Source of the DNA: an uncultured Bacilli bacterium
Lineage (GTDB): Bacteria > Bacillota_I > Bacilli_A > RF39 > UBA660
Length of the DNA: 64,000 nt
NCBI GenBank assembly: GCA_910586425.1
Contig: CAJUHL010000003.1
Location: 1-64,000, forward strand
Reading direction: 5' to 3'
Shown here: in pieces, positions 2,680-56,267 of the stretch
Position numbering within the stretch: position 1 is the first letter of the stretch
How the letters are laid out: every line of letters starts with the position of its first letter
The notes under the pieces: generated by a model
What the model saw: the letters and a program-made list of their open reading frames with translations, nothing else
Told to the model about the DNA's origin: nothing
Databases searched by the model: none
Program-made: the position numbers and the translations under genes

Positions 2680-2824
2680 TAAAATGGTTGTCATTTATTA
2701 AAAAATATTCTTCTAAAAATTTAGGAATTTTGGGTTGTTCTTTTATAAGTCCTTAAATGTATTTATAACCTTTGTTTATAAGTGTTTTCGGTATTTTGAT
2801 TTTTGAAAGATATTCACATATATT

Positions 2825-2878
2825 TTTATAATTTCCTATATTTTCGCTTTCAAAAGTAGTAAATTGGTAGTAAAATTT
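2825..2878 (-). promoter_or_regulatory. TTACTAC box plus promoter next to the structured repeat
   Basis: On the minus strand a direct repeat of TTACTAC (about 2878-2856) runs straight into a -35 TTGAAA (2853-2848), then 17 bp and -10 TATAAA (2830-2825). The same arrangement recurs at 55469-55511. The AAA+ gene has a second, closer promoter, so this one may drive a short RNA or an alternative AAA+ transcript. Confidence 0.5.
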
Positions 2879-2915
2879 AGGAATTTTTTATATATTAATT
2901 TAAAATATTAATAAA

Positions 2916-3030
2916 ATACTATGCAGTGCCATAGTATCGAAACGTAGTCTCATGGGCGGGACTAGTGGTGTAGCCACTAAAGTCTTCGCATAATAAGGCA
3001 TAATATTACCCTTATTATGTAGCATGAAAC
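2916..3030. repeat. Structured dispersed element, copy 1 (four hairpins)
   Basis: P1 pairs ATACTATG with CATAGTAT (2916-2937). P2 pairs GTCTC (2947-2951) with GGGAC (2958-2962). P3 pairs AGTGGT with GCCACT (2964-2978) and is enclosed by an alternative stem, GCGGGAC (2956-2962) with GTC-T-TCGC (2982-2989). P4 pairs ATAATAAGG with CCTTATTAT (2990-3018). P2 and the enclosing stem share GGGAC, so they exclude each other. Copy 2 at 55541-55653 keeps every stem. Most differences between copies are wobble-compatible on the plus strand, but on the minus strand P1 is followed by a T-rich tract like a terminator. Orientation is therefore open. No known RNA family recognised. Confidence 0.7.
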
Positions 3031-3076
3031 ATATAGCAAAATAATTCAATTAACCTTTTTTTGAAAATTTAAAATT

Positions 3077-3715
3077 TTAATCTATTAATGTTATTACTTT
3101 AGCTATTTCTTCTTTCTTTATTTTGCCTTCCCTTATAATAATTGCTTTTTCGTTGTCTATTTCCACAATCGTGGAAGTAGTATCATTACTTACATTTCCA
3201 CTATCTAAAATATAATCCACTTTACCATTTAATTCCTTAATAATATTTTTTATGTTTATTCCTGTAGGATTACCAGAAAGATTTGCACTTGGAGCAACAA
3301 TAGGAACCCCTGCTGTTTTAATAAGATTATAGGCAAACCCATCTTTTAAAAGTCTAACTCTAACGAATTTATCTCCGGCAGAAATAATATCTGGTAAAAC
3401 ATTTTCTTTTTTCTTAAATTTTATTGTCAATGGCCCTGGCCAAAATGCATCAATTAGTTTTTTTTCTATCGGACTAATGTAATCTACCATTTTTTTTAAC
3501 ATAGATAAATCGGAAATCAATACACATAACGGTTTTTGCATAGGTCTTCCTTTTATTTCGTAAACTTTTTTGCAGGATTCTTTATCAAATACATTTGTTC
3601 CAATTCCATATACTGTATCAGTCTTAAAAACTATGATTTTTCCATCTTTTATGGCATTTGATATTTCAACCATAATATTATCATCTATATCTTGTTCTTT
3701 TATATACTTTGTCAT
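3077..3715 (-). CDS. tsaC: Threonylcarbamoyl-AMP synthase (TsaC/YrdC)
   Basis: Makes threonylcarbamoyl-AMP from threonine, bicarbonate and ATP, the first step of t6A formation on ANN-decoding tRNAs. The 212-residue protein is a single YrdC domain: KTDTVYGIG near residue 30, KGRP, FWPGPLT, APSANLSG near residue 140 and TTSTIVEI near 180. It lacks the extra C-terminal Sua5 domain, so the short TsaC form is the better name. An AGGAAG ribosome site lies about 10 bases before the ATG. In many Bacilli this gene follows prfA-prmC; here those genes are 50 kb away and tsaC sits in an accessory stretch next to the structured repeat. Confidence 0.9.
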   Translation of the reverse strand: MTKYIKEQDIDDNIMVEISNAIKDGKIIVFKTDTVYGIGTNVFDKESCKKVYEIKGRPMQKPLCVLISDLSMLKKMVDYISPIEKKLIDAFWPGPLTIKFKKKENVLPDIISAGDKFVRVRLLKDGFAYNLIKTAGVPIVAPSANLSGNPTGINIKNIIKELNGKVDYILDSGNVSNDTTSTIVEIDNEKAIIIREGKIKKEEIAKVITLID

Positions 3716-3813
3716 TTTAAAATTTCACTTCCTAATTATTTATTATAACAGGTTTTGCCAAAAAAATTAATCTACCATTAATGTACCCAAAATAAAATTT
3801 CAAGAAAATTTGT

Positions 3814-3830
3814 AAAGTAGTAAATTGGTA
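3814..3830 (-). promoter_or_regulatory. TTACTAC-type box upstream of tsaC
   Basis: The 17 bases at 3814-3830 are identical to 2853-2869 next to the structured repeat. Read on the minus strand they give TTTACTAC followed by a weak -35-like TTTACA. Together with 2853-2869 this box brackets tsaC and its 3' structured element. Confidence 0.4.
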
Positions 3831-3849
3831 AAGGTCTTTTCCAAATAAT

Positions 3850-3949
3850 CAATATTTTTTTATTAAAAAAAGGAATTACCTCTCTTTCGAAATTGTCAGT
3901 TAATTTAACCTTAAATTCATTTCTAACATCTTCAATTATAGCTATCATA
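3850..3949 (-). pseudogene. Frameshifted remnant of an AlbA_2 (Schlafen-like) ATP-binding protein
   Basis: A GGAGG site precedes an ATG at 3949 that encodes MIAIIEDVRNEFKVKL and then hits a TGA after one more codon. A one-base shift near 3900 restores TDNFEREVI. The joined text resembles the N-terminus of AlbA_2/RecG-like ATP-binding proteins (EFKxKLTDxFExEVIAFLN). The family is normally several hundred residues; here homology stops after about 30 residues, some 20 bases before the TTACTAC box at 3814-3830. I read it as a decayed 5' fragment. The family assignment rests on one short motif. Confidence 0.5.
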
Positions 3950-13410: not shown

Positions 13411-13896
13411 TTAACTATTTGAATCTGGTGTAGTAGTTGTTTTACCTAAAGCAGCTTCGACTTTAGCTTTTGCGTCAGCTGTATCTGTTGGAGTTGCATC
13501 CGTTTCGTCTTTGCTAGTTGCTTTTGCAGTTTCTCCAAAAATATATCCAATTGCTTTTCCATAACTATTGAATTTGAATTCAGCATATTGTACATATCCT
13601 TTATCATTTACAACAACCCATCCTGATGTTGGTTTTTCTCCTTTTACTTCTATGTCTTTAAGTGCTTCTGCATTCCATTCATAGATACCTGATTTAATTG
13701 TAATATTATCAAGTTGACCAATCATAGAATATTTTTCAATAGATTCAATATATCCATTTGCACTTGCTTCTGCAGCACCTTTCTTTGCCTTGTCGATTAC
13801 ATCCATAATCATTGGTGTTGCAATTAACGCAATAATTGCTAAAATAACGATTACAGCTAGTAACTCAATTAATGTAAAACCTTTTTGACTTTTCAT
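13411..13896 (-). CDS. Type IV pilin-like protein (class III signal peptide)
   Basis: Starts MKSQKGFTLIELLAVIVILA: a short basic leader, prepilin peptidase site G/FTLIE with the conserved Glu at mature position 5, and a hydrophobic helix to about residue 27. A ~100-residue globular part contains EVKGEKPTSGWVVVNDKG. The C-terminus is a low-complexity T/D/A/K tail ending in TTTTPDSNS. The start is fixed by AGGAGG eight bases upstream. It has its own promoter (13927-13956) and is a paralogue of the next gene. No pilus ATPase, platform protein or prepilin peptidase is in this window, so the assembly machine must be elsewhere. Confidence 0.85.
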   Translation of the reverse strand: MKSQKGFTLIELLAVIVILAIIALIATPMIMDVIDKAKKGAAEASANGYIESIEKYSMIGQLDNITIKSGIYEWNAEALKDIEVKGEKPTSGWVVVNDKGYVQYAEFKFNSYGKAIGYIFGETAKATSKDETDATPTDTADAKAKVEAALGKTTTTPDSNS

Positions 13897-13926
13897 TCTA
13901 ACATCCTCCTCTATTTTTACAAGTTT

Positions 13927-13956
13927 AGTATAGCATAACTCAAAAACATTAGTCAA
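13927..13956 (-). promoter_or_regulatory. Promoter of the second pilin-like gene
   Basis: TTGACT (13956-13951), 18 bp, extended -10 TGCTATACT with TATACT at 13932-13927. Confidence 0.55.
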
Positions 13957-13980: not shown

Positions 13981-14481
13981 TTATACATTAGGATTTAATG
14001 CATTATGCACAGCATCTACGACTGTCTTTTGAAAGTCTGTTATACTTTGTCCTTCTGATTGAATTGGTTTTGTAACATTCGCATCTAAAATCGCTTGAGC
14101 ACGGTCTATTTCAGTATAGCCCACATATTTATCATAACTACCAAATTGTAAAGATGCGGCAACCACAATACCTCTACTATCAATGAATACCCATCCTGAT
14201 GTTGGTTTTTCTCCTTTTACTTCTACTTCTGAAAGTTCTGAAGCATTATAATCATACAGCCCTGCTGGAATTACAGAAGTGTTTCCTGTATTTTGATCTA
14301 ACATGCCAACAACTGTATATTTTTCAATTGCCTCGATATACCCATTCATACTCGATTCCACTGCACCTTTTCTTGCTTTATCAATGACATCCATAATCAT
14401 TGGAGTCGCAATCAAAGCAATAATGGCAAGTATTACAATAACGGCTAACAACTCAATTAGTGTAAAACCTTTTTGTTTCAT
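13981..14481 (-). CDS. Type IV pilin-like protein (paralogue)
   Basis: 166 residues. The first ~38 residues (MKQKGFTLIELLAVIVILA and the rest of the helix) are nearly identical to the downstream gene, and both keep EVKGEKPTSGWV in the globular domain; elsewhere they diverge. The C-terminus is a helix-forming stretch (SITDFQKTVVDAVHNALNPNV) instead of a low-complexity tail. Preservation of the leader and helix with divergence of the head is usual for major/minor pilin pairs. A GGAGG ribosome site precedes the start. Confidence 0.85.
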   Translation of the reverse strand: MKQKGFTLIELLAVIVILAIIALIATPMIMDVIDKARKGAVESSMNGYIEAIEKYTVVGMLDQNTGNTSVIPAGLYDYNASELSEVEVKGEKPTSGWVFIDSRGIVVAASLQFGSYDKYVGYTEIDRAQAILDANVTKPIQSEGQSITDFQKTVVDAVHNALNPNV

Positions 14482-17839: not shown

Positions 17840-18057
17840 TAAAAAAACACATCCCTAGATAAGGACGTGATTGCCGTGGTACCACCTTAATTTATAACAT
17901 AAGTTATCTTATATATTTAACGCATATGATACGGAATATTCTACTGATTTTCAAATATTCAGCTCCCAAGCTACCTGCACATTGCTTTATTATCTGTTTT
18001 CACCAACCACAGACTCTCTTTCAATATCACAATTGTACTCCTCTTGTTCCAAGCTTT
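17840..18057 (-). promoter_or_regulatory. T-box riboswitch controlling the HD gene and valS
   Basis: Contains AAGGTGGTACCACGG (about 17890-17873), the canonical T-box bulge. The terminator hairpin pairs CACGTCC with GGGATGTG and is followed by TTTTTTT. The downstream valS indicates a valine specifier. Confidence 0.92.
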
Positions 18058-18063
18058 TATACC

Positions 18064-44140: not shown

Positions 44141-44848
44141 CTATCCCCATGGAATCTCGCTTGGTTTCATACGGGTTTCATTTTCTTTGATTTCTACAAT
44201 TTTTCCACTATTCATACGAATAATACGATCTCCAATAAAAGCAATCCCTGGATTATGAGTCACAATAATCATGGTCGTACCCAATTTTTCATTGGCTTCT
44301 ACCAAAGATTCTAATACAATCTTTCCCGTTTTTTCATCCAAAGCCCCTGTTGGCTCATCACAGAACATTACACTTGGATTTTTAGCAAGTGCTCTTGCGA
44401 TAGAAACACGCTGTTGTTCCCCACCTGATAATTGATACATATACTTTTTCTTATGTTTGGTTAACCCAACTGTATCTAAAATAGCGTCAATATCAGTATT
44501 TGCCTTCCCCAAAGAGGCTCCTACCAATACATTTTCATATACATTCAAATGTTCCAATAAATTGTAGGTTTGAAAGATAAAACCTAGATTCTTTTTTCGA
44601 AAACGAGTCATTTTATAATCATGATATCTCGCAATATTTTTACCTTGATAAAAAATCTTACCTTTACTAATTTTATCTAGGCCTGATACCACATTGAGTA
44701 ATGTTGTTTTTCCACTTCCACTTGGACCTAAAATGACGACAATTTCACCCTTGCGGACAGATAAAGATACATCATTTAAAGCTTGACTTCCTACTTTACC
44801 TAGTTGATAAGTTTTATATATATTTTGAATCTCAATTAAATTTTCCAT
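44141..44848 (-). CDS. ABC transporter ATP-binding protein (LolD/MacB type)
   Basis: 235 residues with Walker A GPSGSGKT near 42, Q-loop FIFQTYNLL, signature LSGGEQQRVSIARAL near 140, Walker B VMFCDEPTGALD and H-loop VTHN. The sequence is of the MacB/LolD/BceA subfamily that works with FtsX-type permeases. It follows the permease gene by four bases. Its close paralogue lies on the other side of the permease. Confidence 0.92.
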   Translation of the reverse strand: MENLIEIQNIYKTYQLGKVGSQALNDVSLSVRKGEIVVILGPSGSGKTTLLNVVSGLDKISKGKIFYQGKNIARYHDYKMTRFRKKNLGFIFQTYNLLEHLNVYENVLVGASLGKANTDIDAILDTVGLTKHKKKYMYQLSGGEQQRVSIARALAKNPSVMFCDEPTGALDEKTGKIVLESLVEANEKLGTTMIIVTHNPGIAFIGDRIIRMNSGKIVEIKENETRMKPSEIPWG

Positions 44849-47426: not shown

Positions 47427-48134
47427 TTACGCCCACCTCAATTCACTGGCTTTTTTCACAGTTTCATTTTTTGTAATTTCCATCACTTTTCCACTATTCA
47501 TACGAATGACAGTATGTGCCATATCAGCAATACTAGGATTATGGGTAACAACGATCATTGTCGTATGATATGCTTCATTCATATCTTGTAAAAGCTCTAG
47601 GACTTTTTTTCCTGTTTCCTCATCCAAAGCCCCTGTTGGCTCATCACAAAATAATACTTTTGGATTTTTCACCAAAGCACGAGCAATCGCAACACGCTGC
47701 ATTTGTCCACCAGACAATTGATATGGATACTTATGTGCATGATTTTCCAATCCAACTTGCTTGATTAGTTCCTTAACAGAAAGTGGATGATGAGAAAGTT
47801 CTTTTCCAAGTTCAATATTTTCTTTGACAGTTAAACTTGGAATTAAGTTATAACTTTGGAATATGAAGCCCAAATTGTTTGCTCGATATTCTGTTCGTTC
47901 TTTTTCATTCATCTGATCAATACGAACCCCATCAAATAAAATATGCCCTTTACTTGGAGAATCAATTCCAGAAAGCAAATTTAGCATAGTAGATTTTCCA
48001 CTTCCACTTGGGCCTAATACAACAATGATTTCCCCTTCTGTTAATTCTAAATTTATATTTTCTAATGCATGATAATCCGTATCATAGTTTTTATATGTCT
48101 TATAAATTTGTTCTAATTGGTATAAGTTTTTCAT
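47427..48134 (-). CDS. ABC transporter ATP-binding protein (LolD/MacB type)
   Basis: 235 residues, the same length as the ATPase at 44141-44848. Walker A GPSGSGKS near 42, signature LSGGQMQRVAIARAL, Walker B VLFCDEPTGALDEETG and H-loop VTHNPS. First gene of the ATPase-permease-ATPase operon, with an AGAGGAGG ribosome site. The two ATPases could form a heterodimer, or one arose by duplication. Confidence 0.92.
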   Translation of the reverse strand: MKNLYQLEQIYKTYKNYDTDYHALENINLELTEGEIIVVLGPSGSGKSTMLNLLSGIDSPSKGHILFDGVRIDQMNEKERTEYRANNLGFIFQSYNLIPSLTVKENIELGKELSHHPLSVKELIKQVGLENHAHKYPYQLSGGQMQRVAIARALVKNPKVLFCDEPTGALDEETGKKVLELLQDMNEAYHTTMIVVTHNPSIADMAHTVIRMNSGKVMEITKNETVKKASELRWA

Positions 48135-55291: not shown

Positions 55292-55468
55292 TATATTATA
55301 TGAGATAGCGTTCCATATAAAACCATAAATTTTTGATGCTAGAAATTGACCTTTCTGATATAAAAATATAGCATTTTTGAATATCTTTCATAAGTTTTTA
55401 AATACTTTCACAACCCTTTATTTATCGAGATTCATAATTGTTTTCTTTTGGAATCTATTTTATAAATT

Positions 55469-55511
55469 GTTATAATTTCTTATATTTTCACTATCAAAAG
55501 TAGTAGTAAAA
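55469..55511 (-). promoter_or_regulatory. TTACTAC box plus promoter next to structured element copy 2
   Basis: TTACTACTAC (about 55509-55500) abuts -35 TTGATA (55497-55492), then 17 bp and -10 TATAAC (55474-55469). The surrounding bases match 2825-2878 at most positions. prfA already has a closer promoter, as the AAA+ gene does at the other copy. Confidence 0.5.
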
Positions 55512-55540
55512 TTAAAAATTTCTTTAATAAATATGAAAAA

Positions 55541-55653
55541 ATACTATGCGATGTCATAGTATTAATAGTCTTATGAGCGAGACCAGTGGCATAGCCACTA
55601 AAGTCTTCGCTATAATAAGGTATAGTATTACCCTTATTATGTAGTATAAAACA
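55541..55653. repeat. Structured dispersed element, copy 2 (four hairpins)
   Basis: Same layout as 2916-3030. P1 ATACTATG / CATAGTAT (55541-55562); P2 GTCTT (55568-55572) with GAGAC; P3 AGTGGC / GCCACT (55585-55599); enclosing stem GCGAGAC (55577-55583) with GTC-T-TCGC (55603-55610); P4 ATAATAAGG / CCTTATTAT (55612-55640). Relative to copy 1, G-U pairs become A-U or C-G in three stems. On the minus strand P1 is followed by TTTTTT. It lies directly 3' of the cysteine-motif gene and upstream of prfA. Confidence 0.7.
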
Positions 55654-55696
55654 GAAATATTTTAATACATTTCAGCCTTTTGTCTTCTTTATAATC

Positions 55697-56134
55697 TTAT
55701 TTTTTTATTAATTTTGGATTATTTTTAGTGTCTCTAATATTTATACTTTCTTGGATTAAATTATTTAATTTTATAGTTAATTCTTCTCTTGTCATATTAG
55801 GATTTTCCCTTAATAAGCCAAAAGCTAATGTTTGTATAGCATCAAATTTTTCATTACATTGTATTTCATCATTTATATCATATTTTAATAAATAATCTTC
55901 TGCATGCACACATAACTCAAAGGCCATAACACACCCTTCTTCTGCTTGTTGTCCACATATTAAGCAACGCTCATAATTGTCAATAATTCCTTTGTTACCT
56001 AAATTTACTAATATATGCGAACACGATTCTTCCTGCTGCTTAATATTTATATTGATGGATGCTAATTCCTCGGTTAATGCATTTCTTTGTGTTTCTAACA
56101 TTCTTACATAAGCAATTTTTTTAAAAATAGTCAT
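55697..56134 (-). CDS. Hypothetical protein with cysteine motif
   Basis: 145 residues; family not recognised. Residues 1-40 are helical (RMLETQRNALTEELASINI), followed by Cys residues in CSHIL, ERCLICGQ and EEGC, which could bind zinc, and a helical C-terminal half. AAAGGAGG eight bases before the ATG at 56134 decides the start. It sits between a TTACTAC box (56180-56200) and structured element copy 2, the same arrangement as tsaC at the other locus. Confidence 0.65.
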   Translation of the reverse strand: MTIFKKIAYVRMLETQRNALTEELASININIKQQEESCSHILVNLGNKGIIDNYERCLICGQQAEEGCVMAFELCVHAEDYLLKYDINDEIQCNEKFDAIQTLAFGLLRENPNMTREELTIKLNNLIQESINIRDTKNNPKLIKK

Positions 56135-56179
56135 CTTAAAACCTCCTTTATACCAATATAATAGCACGATTTTTGTTTT

Positions 56180-56200
56180 AAAAGTAGTAATTAGTAGTAA
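56180..56200 (-). promoter_or_regulatory. TTACTAC direct repeat upstream of the cysteine-motif gene
   Basis: The minus strand reads TTACTACTAATTACTACTTT and continues into a -35-like TTAAAA and a TATATT -10 about 25 bases before the ribosome site. Fourth occurrence of the box in the window. Confidence 0.45.
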
Positions 56201-56267
56201 ATATCTTTAAAATATTGCATCCATACCCTAAAATAAAGGCTTTTTAAACCTAAACTTTTAACTAAAA

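Follow-up and report, generated by a model that had tools for sequence, protein, structure and literature searches.

A hairpin cluster in uncultured Bacilli as the probable CRESS-type replication origin of small single-gene elements with Tn916/Tn1549-type ends

Results and Discussion

The hairpin cluster that occurs twice in the window, by which we mean the whole 64-kb stretch of DNA from an uncultured Bacilli bacterium analysed here, is very probably the origin of a CRESS-type Rep (HUH endonuclease and helicase) carried on small non-autonomous integrative elements that have Tn916/Tn1549-type ends and a single cargo gene. This assignment rests on sequence comparison, in which one hairpin of the cluster, P4, recurs beside Rep genes in autonomous relatives, and in which nearly identical units are found in unrelated surroundings. 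A reading made from the sequence alone had left a regulatory RNA, a folded recombination site and a non-autonomous mobile element as options. The last proved right. The second was right about a folded site, which is better seen as a replication origin than as a recombination site, and the first gives way to the origin reading, as discussed below.

Structure and conservation of the hairpin cluster

The structured element is present at both places where it had been reported, 2916-3030 and 55541-55653. It consists of P1 (2916..2937 in unit A and 55541..55562 in unit B, not assigned to a strand), a composite hairpin on the plus strand that joins the P3 and the enclosing stem of the sequence-only reading (2956..2989 and 55577..55610), and P4, also on the plus strand (2990..3018 and 55612..55640). 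For unit B, P1 and the composite hairpin were placed from the sequence and an alignment of 47 copies. Folding was compared with dinucleotide shuffles, and all four strands beat the shuffle mean (z of -2.83, -4.94, -4.06 and -6.42), with the real fold equalled by 1 of 200 shuffles for the plus strand of copy A and by 0 of 200 for the other three strands.

The alignment comprises 47 of 61 candidates, 11 chance matches and three damaged relatives having been removed by eye, and 94.1% of its cells pair over P1, the composite hairpin and P4, a value that the omission of the damaged relatives biases toward pairing. For P1 alone, 88% of cells are paired over the 47 rows; for the composite hairpin it is 96%, with changes on both sides in 8 of its 14 pairs. 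The covariation suspected from the two copies withstands a statistical test: in 14 pairs both bases have changed, compared with 4.1 on average in shuffles, and not one of 500 shuffles comes up to the alignment on any of five measures, with the proviso that related sequences without structure can also exceed such shuffles. Slid controls likewise fall far below the real pairing values.

Among the hairpins described as conserved, P1, P4 and, as a composite, P3 with the enclosing stem have held, and P2 has not. P2 (TAGTC..GACTA) was thought to compete with the enclosing stem as in a switch. It is paired at 80.1% versus 80.4% in shuffles, that is, at shuffle level, and therefore gives the switch no support; the two mutually exclusive folds of a switching RNA are not both conserved here.

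The T-tract that had been noticed after P1 on the minus strand is real, and the two together would suit a possible terminator of cargo transcripts. A terminator scan of both strands returned no terminator-like site; it missed P1 because this hairpin has fewer than the three G-C pairs demanded by the scan rule. In the autonomous elements L044, L045 and L053 the composite hairpin persists, and it probably forms part of the origin.

When the surroundings of the two copies are aligned, sequence similarity runs about 200 bp leftward from P1. The homology extends far beyond the hairpins, and the copies are parts of units of 1145 bp and 898 bp. In one related locus (L022, G009:C7) the left half of the copy, including the left arm of P1, has been swapped for unrelated sequence, and the origin side is intact.

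P4 as a replication origin

The loop of P4 holds TAATATTAC at 3001-3009 in unit A and TAGTATTAC at 55623-55631 in unit B, a nine-base motif in the loop of a stem-loop as in CRESS origins. We take the letters TARTATTAC to be the CRESS nonanucleotide consensus. Of the 32 copies gathered by overall similarity, 29 keep this motif (the exceptions are L026, L034 and L036); in the 47-row set it carries no weight, since it was among the selection criteria there. Adjoining P4 in unit A are three 7-nt repeats (ATGTAGC, ATGAAAC and ATATAGC; 3017..3037, plus strand), presumed to be Rep-binding iterons, and sequence conservation ends right after them. The exact ATGTAGC occurs at least twice in 32 of the 47 copies, once in 10 and not at all in 5. 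Three are present in L044 and in L045, one in unit A and none in unit B, so that the tandem repeats expected beside such a stem-loop exist in the family and are degenerate in the window.

P4 and the 7-nt repeats to its right are what RF03070 (ssNA-helicase, Rfam) models. The sequence-only reading knew no RNA family with the layout of the cluster, which does not hold for the P4 part; P1 and the composite hairpin lie outside the 49 positions of the model. The window copies match it at 2989-3031 with 30.9 bits and at 55611-55653 with 26.5 bits, below the gathering cut-off of 41.5; matches above the cut-off are present in 11 of the 12 genomes in which relatives were first found. Rfam files RF03070 as sRNA, and its authors themselves reportedly already suspected single-stranded DNA.

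The same kind of origin stands beside Rep genes in autonomous elements. In L044, L045 and L053, a gene for a Rep of 329-336 aa lies 126-144 bp from the RF03070 match, and L044 and L045 are the two best RF03070 matches in a sample of 145 genomes of one family. The neighbour proteins of all three loci match PF02407 (Viral_Rep), and the L045 protein matches solved CRESS-type Rep structures, the best being 7lar (listed as ATP-dependent helicase Rep; E 7.2e-11), which is presumably the porcine circovirus Rep structure. A CRESS-type rep gene thus adjoins the origin in these relatives. Further Rep relatives with 34-44% identity are found beside RF03070 matches (L081, L097, L098, L099 and L100) and beside similar hairpins (L087 and L088).

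At 11 of 14 scanned loci, all of which were picked for carrying a Rep relative or its origin, [TCA]A[AG]TATTAC is enclosed by a hairpin with 6 or more pairs. These 11 include neighbours of Rep genes that are 34-65% identical, with unrelated stems, a further point against the proposed switch. At the first loop position L087, L088, L098 and L099 have C, and L100 has A. No P4-type hairpin was present at L089/L093 (one element of G104, with a Rep 28% identical and Int present) or at L112. Stems that are unrelated while loop and position stay are the pattern of a Rep origin, and RF03070 is therefore better read as folded DNA. P4 itself is best read as a rolling-circle origin acting as folded DNA.

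In L076 (G093), a Rep of the same family and its origin are present, and a close Tn916-type integrase was not found in the element; this layout suggests that Rep and origin may pass as a module from one integration module to another.

Architecture of units A and B

Comparison of the copies gives a common module order: a left end with an int remnant, an arm repeat, the hairpins with the origin, one cargo gene, a second arm repeat and a right end. Unit A spans 2715..3859 (1145 bp) and is a non-autonomous element of the Tn916/Tn1549 type; its ends are good to a few bases and were set by comparison with units that have ends fixed by pairwise identity. The left terminal repeat (2715..2735, plus strand, beginning AAAAATTTAGGAATTTTGG) was aligned with the corresponding ends of relatives and of two Enterococcus elements. 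It is followed by the 3'-end remnant of a Tn916/Tn1549-type int gene on the minus strand (2792..2887; 75% identity by tblastn to residues 397-428 of the L075 integrase, E 4.9e-16) and by the left arm-site repeat (AAAGTAGTAAATTGGTAGTAAAAT, 2853..2876, plus strand); an Enterococcus element encoding a Tn916-type Int has a similar tandem motif at its left end. The cargo gene at 3077..3715 on the minus strand encodes a 212-aa Sua5/TsaC protein, L-threonylcarbamoyladenylate synthase (PF01300, 6.5e-52; TIGR00057 above cut-off). After the right arm-site repeat (3814..3831, plus strand), about 35 bp that are present in other units have been deleted. Because of this deletion the end finder missed the right end (3840..3859, plus strand), which was compared by eye with other right ends.

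Unit B, the second element, covers 55362..56259 (898 bp), again with ends good to a few bases. It contains an int remnant (55463..55525, minus strand; 57% identity by tblastn, E 2.7e-6), a left arm-site repeat 8 bp shorter than that of copy A (55496..55511, plus strand), a gene for a 156-aa protein without Pfam match (55697..56167, minus strand), a right arm-site repeat placed by sequence (56180..56200, plus strand) and a right end supported by both sequence and end finder (56230..56259, plus strand). Could the two window copies still move? Given the degenerate 7-nt repeats in both, the short arm repeat in B and the loss of about 35 bp in A, they may no longer do so.

Ends, arm repeats and integrase

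Across the family the arm repeat AAAGTAGTAAATTRGTAGTAAA stands some 147 bp to the left of the origin loop. In compact units it recurs 599-1366 bp further right; in the autonomous elements L074 and L075 the second repeat follows 7.0 and 8.2 kb further right. Its first 20 bases, with up to 2 mismatches allowed, gave 120 matches in 18 carrier genomes versus 3 for the reversed pattern. Between its arm repeats L075 encodes a Rep, an FtsK-like protein and a tyrosine integrase. The integrase matches PF02920 (Tn916 integrase DNA-binding domain) and the 'Int protein' of PDB entry 6en0 at E 5.5e-135, an entry that we take to be one structure from the Tn1549 Int paper. The FtsK-like protein (406 aa) matches FtsK/SpoIIIE-like PHROGs at 8.4e-18; it had no match in the PDB up to E 1 and none in Pfam over the cut-off (best E 0.0018), and to label it TcpA, hence FtsK/TcpA-like, is a reading by eye.

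The left flanks of the hairpins hold the 3' end of int in antisense, often with stop codons. Matches were obtained for 50 of 52 rows, a count that is not independent, since the rows were chosen by a 12-base motif lying inside the int remnant, and that includes by mistake four right-hand repeats, two of them among the matches. The junction between int remnant and P1 is common to the units and points to one founding deletion, after which cargo would have been exchanged.

In two Enterococcus elements, with Int proteins of 55% and 63% identity, a stretch of 134-174 bp matches the left end of the units at 69-75%. At this end one of them has the tandem repeat AAAGTAGTAAATGGAGTAGTAAAA, which we assume, from PDB entry 1B69, to be the DR2 arm site of Tn916. 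A blastn search of plasmids and phages with copy A and its left flank found no copy of the hairpins, and the 69% Enterococcus matches from it lie just past a Tn916-type int.

T and A are enriched around the units: T reaches up to 0.80 at about 6-10 nt ahead of 46 left ends, and beyond 33 right ends A reaches up to 0.94 at about 6-8 nt, where ends were placed by best consensus match, rows below threshold were dropped and a few ends are misplaced. This enrichment agrees with the targets given in the excerpted text of the respective papers for Tn1549 (TTTT-n6-AAAA; PMC5871717) and Tn916 (TTTTTA[AT]4AAAAA; PMC12084037). The units share AT-rich inverted ends and TTTT-n6-AAAA targets with Tn916/Tn1549; of the integrase gene they retain a remnant, and it is intact in the autonomous relatives. 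Integration and transfer genes have been lost and both attachment ends kept, which is the make-up of a CIME; mobilisation in trans by a related element is hinted at indirectly, by the presence of one unit or cargo at different sites.

We also considered the AGTAGTAAATT repeats as the crossover core of a site-specific integrase, an idea that was dropped on finding that homology reaches about 146 bp to the left and up to about 100 bp to the right of these repeats.

Evidence of movement

Two units from different species, L040 and L056, share 991 bp at 99.8% identity, from AAAAATATAG to AAACTTTT, within unrelated flanks. The same pattern is seen for L035 and L077, which have about 1200 bp in common at 97%. 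In three more pairs (L017/L054, L018/L061 and L069/L050) the cargo is in common and the flanks differ where readable.

For one unit, comparison also gives an uninterrupted site. The joined flanks of L040 match 6 of 193 genomes, and the three that were aligned run through the junction without the unit: G112 (79% over 84-249), G476 (68% over 85-296) and G543 (84% over 97-153). With the flanks of L018, right-hand matches alone were obtained and no empty site. The two genes neighbouring L017 are adjacent in 3 of 4 genomes examined, evidence that is weaker because the site in G003 holds about 1.2 kb beyond the unit.

Two loci show other arrangements. L116 (G002:C8, about 1650-2084) has a left end, one arm repeat and a right end within about 430 bp, without an origin, and looks like a unit collapsed between its repeats. 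L115 (G007:C42, 1097-2069) has two arm repeats and both ends with no recognisable origin, and is either a decayed unit or a unit with another origin.

Cargo genes

A main ORF of at least 60 aa lies wholly inside 33 of 34 compact units with both repeats, L048 being the one without; this count covers neither the two autonomous elements nor 15 rows in which no second repeat lay within reach. The cargo is oriented opposite to the origin in 30 of the 33, and 11 of the 33 contain additional smaller ORFs of 60-146 aa. Grouped by blastp, 34 cargo proteins (these 33 plus the one from L113) form 27 families, and seven of these families occur in two species each, with 81-100% identity. Some cargo ORFs (L035, L054 and L069) have longer twins in other species.

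Pfam names could be given to 12 of the 27 family representatives, and 15 are without any. The named ones are SLOG/lysine decarboxylase-like, metallophosphoesterase, NUDIX (two), DUF5680, Ppx-GppA, HD (two), GNAT, radical SAM, DNA alkylation repair and, in the window, Sua5. PADLOC run on the 27 proteins returned scattered matches only, the best at 5.9e-8 to a viperin model; the viperin match of the L059 cargo is below cut-off. In a set of 58 genomes, the three proteins most closely related to the window Sua5 have 58-69% identity. In the stretches fetched around these three no arm repeat was found (L122 has a weak right-end-like match), and the window Sua5 thus resembles a captured host gene.

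Distribution of units and helpers

An invariant 19-base block occurs in genome contigs at 13 places, each of them in a draft genome titled uncultured Bacilli, Bacillales, Tenericutes, Erysipelotrichaceae, Firmicutes or bacterium, and a pattern scan of viral contigs gave 0 matches. Further copies in relatives, which the sequence-only reading had proposed to look for, do exist: blastn with copy A finds 34 places, some of them partial, in 12 of 12 of those genomes, with 1-6 each. At E <= 0.001, RF03070 matches 15 of the 145 family genomes (13 over cut-off; four already known from the 19-base block) and 11 of 395 genomes in a class-wide sample (8 over cut-off), with more than one match in 8 of the 15 and 2 of the 11, respectively. 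None was detected in 14 control genomes. This distribution is patchy, as for a mobile element.

Rep is present in 7 of the 145 family genomes and a close Int (E <= 1e-60) in 3. These helpers are rare in the carriers as well; of the 15 genomes with RF03070, Rep was found in 4 and a close Int in 2. Missing helpers weigh little, as the genomes are drafts and maybe incomplete. Rep relatives with 40.8-42.5% identity are encoded in six phage records named bajarodino virus, of which the two fetched are filed under Inoviridae, and this leaves room for phage helpers. In one of the two, L111 from rodent faeces, a P4-type hairpin lies at 1851 with TAGTATTAC in its loop, and rep starts at 1987; the second fetched phage has no P4-type hairpin.

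Proposed mechanism

From these comparisons we infer nicking, replication, excision, the use of helpers in trans, transfer and cargo capture, as well as roles for P1 and the composite hairpin. At the start of the cycle, an autonomous relative would provide, in trans, an integrase that binds the arm repeats and ends and excises the unit as a circle. A helper Rep would bind the 7-nt repeats, nick P4 on the plus strand within its TARTATTAC loop and start rolling-circle copying, which may also serve transfer via the FtsK-like protein of the helper. The circle would then reinsert at sites consisting of a T-tract, about 6 nt and an A-tract. Cargo capture by run-on copying is conceivable, as copying that starts at the nick would proceed toward the side of the unit where the cargo lies.

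Alternative explanations

It is very unlikely that the cluster is instead a structured regulatory RNA or sRNA of the plus strand, possibly switching between two folds, with the mobile context being incidental. The stems do covary with plus-strand wobble pairs, Rfam types RF03070 as sRNA, and both copies have promoter-like sites upstream on the plus strand. However, those sites fall within the int remnant or beside it, and their number is only 1.2-1.3 SD above shuffles, no terminator-like site was found by the scan on either strand, and the competing hairpin is not conserved. What remains constant is the loop motif, beside Rep genes with otherwise unrelated stems. A transcript from the cluster may nevertheless exist; the plus-strand wobble pairs suit RNA no less than single-stranded DNA.

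Two other explanations are each improbable, to a similar degree and less so than the RNA. Helper inoviruses could copy the units and package them as single-stranded DNA via the origin, which would make the units satellites of filamentous phages. This agrees with the Rep relatives of the six bajarodino virus records and with the P4-type hairpin just upstream of rep in one fetched phage; the other fetched phage lacks such a hairpin, however, and two of the three closest Rep partners (91-100% identity) lie between Tn916-type ends with Int. Alternatively, the units could be decayed, immobile deletion products of autonomous elements, and the genes between their repeats ordinary ones of the host, trapped by chance. 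This reading holds best when the two window copies, with their worn repeats, are taken by themselves, and the stop codons frequent in the int remnants, the rarity of helpers in carriers and the shortened cargo ORFs of L035, L054 and L069 speak for it. For the family as a whole it is countered by the seven pairs of species with the same cargo family, the 99.8% identical units within unrelated flanks, the uninterrupted site in relatives, and the presence of one main ORF in 33 of 34 compact units, in one orientation in 30 of 33. We therefore prefer a CRESS-type origin on non-autonomous elements of the Tn916/Tn1549 type.

Relation to known systems

RF03070 covers P4 and its repeats, and relatives of the units exceed its cut-off, but P1, the composite hairpin and everything else in the unit fall outside the model, which is filed as sRNA whereas a DNA origin is indicated here. 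With the conjugative transposons Tn916 and Tn1549 the family shares ends, arm repeats, targets of T-tract, 6 nt and A-tract, and int in the autonomous relatives. Unlike them, the units are about 0.85-1.6 kb long, have int cut to its last ~30 codons and no conjugation genes, and carry a CRESS-type origin. Integron gene cassettes contain one gene per mobile unit, mostly in one orientation; they differ from the units in the type of recombinase and in their ends, and the units have a replication origin and no array was seen.

Integrated plasmids with a Rep of nuclease and helicase parts are described by Kazlauskas 2019 (PMC6668415), and a stem-loop origin with a nine-base loop motif in PMC8780604; in contrast to such CRESS/pCRESS replicons, the units have the origin and no Rep. 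The autonomous relatives resemble streptococcal IMEs with a Viral_Rep relaxase and TcpA (PMC5704250 and PMC5357655, as excerpted) in their tyrosine integrase, FtsK-like protein and Viral_Rep, where equating these IMEs with class IME_7 rests on matching counts in the excerpts. Those IMEs, unlike the units, encode their own machinery, and the excerpts compared contain no such origin. CIMEs and relaxase-less MGIs (excerpt of PMC5704250) similarly keep cis sites, and CIMEs have lost integration and transfer genes; the units here, by contrast with what that excerpt describes, form a family that spans several species, with a backbone in common and a single, interchangeable cargo gene. In open-licence literature we found no description of non-autonomous Tn916-like or CRESS single-gene cassettes; in the same literature RF03070 was not found, and ssNA-helicase occurred only in one benchmark mention.

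Each module is of a known kind, and it is their combination with one exchangeable gene per unit that seems new. Whether the units form an undescribed single-gene cassette system of uncultured Bacilli, in which a backbone of Tn916-type ends and a CRESS origin, served by helpers acting in trans, picks up individual host genes, spreads them and exchanges them between species, we regard as evenly balanced. If true, a transposon combined with a virus-like replication module would provide an integron-like route of gene flow, and an orphan Rfam 'RNA' would be explained as a DNA origin. The origin reading gives RF03070 a concrete function and shows a virus-like replication origin riding on minimal, transposon-like one-gene units, which would constitute an unrecognised path of gene exchange for small-genome Bacilli (NUDIX, HD, Sua5, metallophosphoesterase, acetyltransferase, radical SAM and others). 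Gene capture by them would be testable, as backbone, ends and cargo are short and separable.

Other features of the window

A 39-nt repeat forms five head-to-tail copies at 1-270, 68-88% alike over a 114-nt reference. Two 235-aa ORFs at 44141-44848 and 47427-48134 share a 297-nt stretch at 71% and appear to be a duplication, and a similar pair of ORFs lies at 13411-13956 and 13981-14481. A T-box leader on the minus strand at 17858-18060 (122 bits) is the sole Rfam match over its gathering score in the window.
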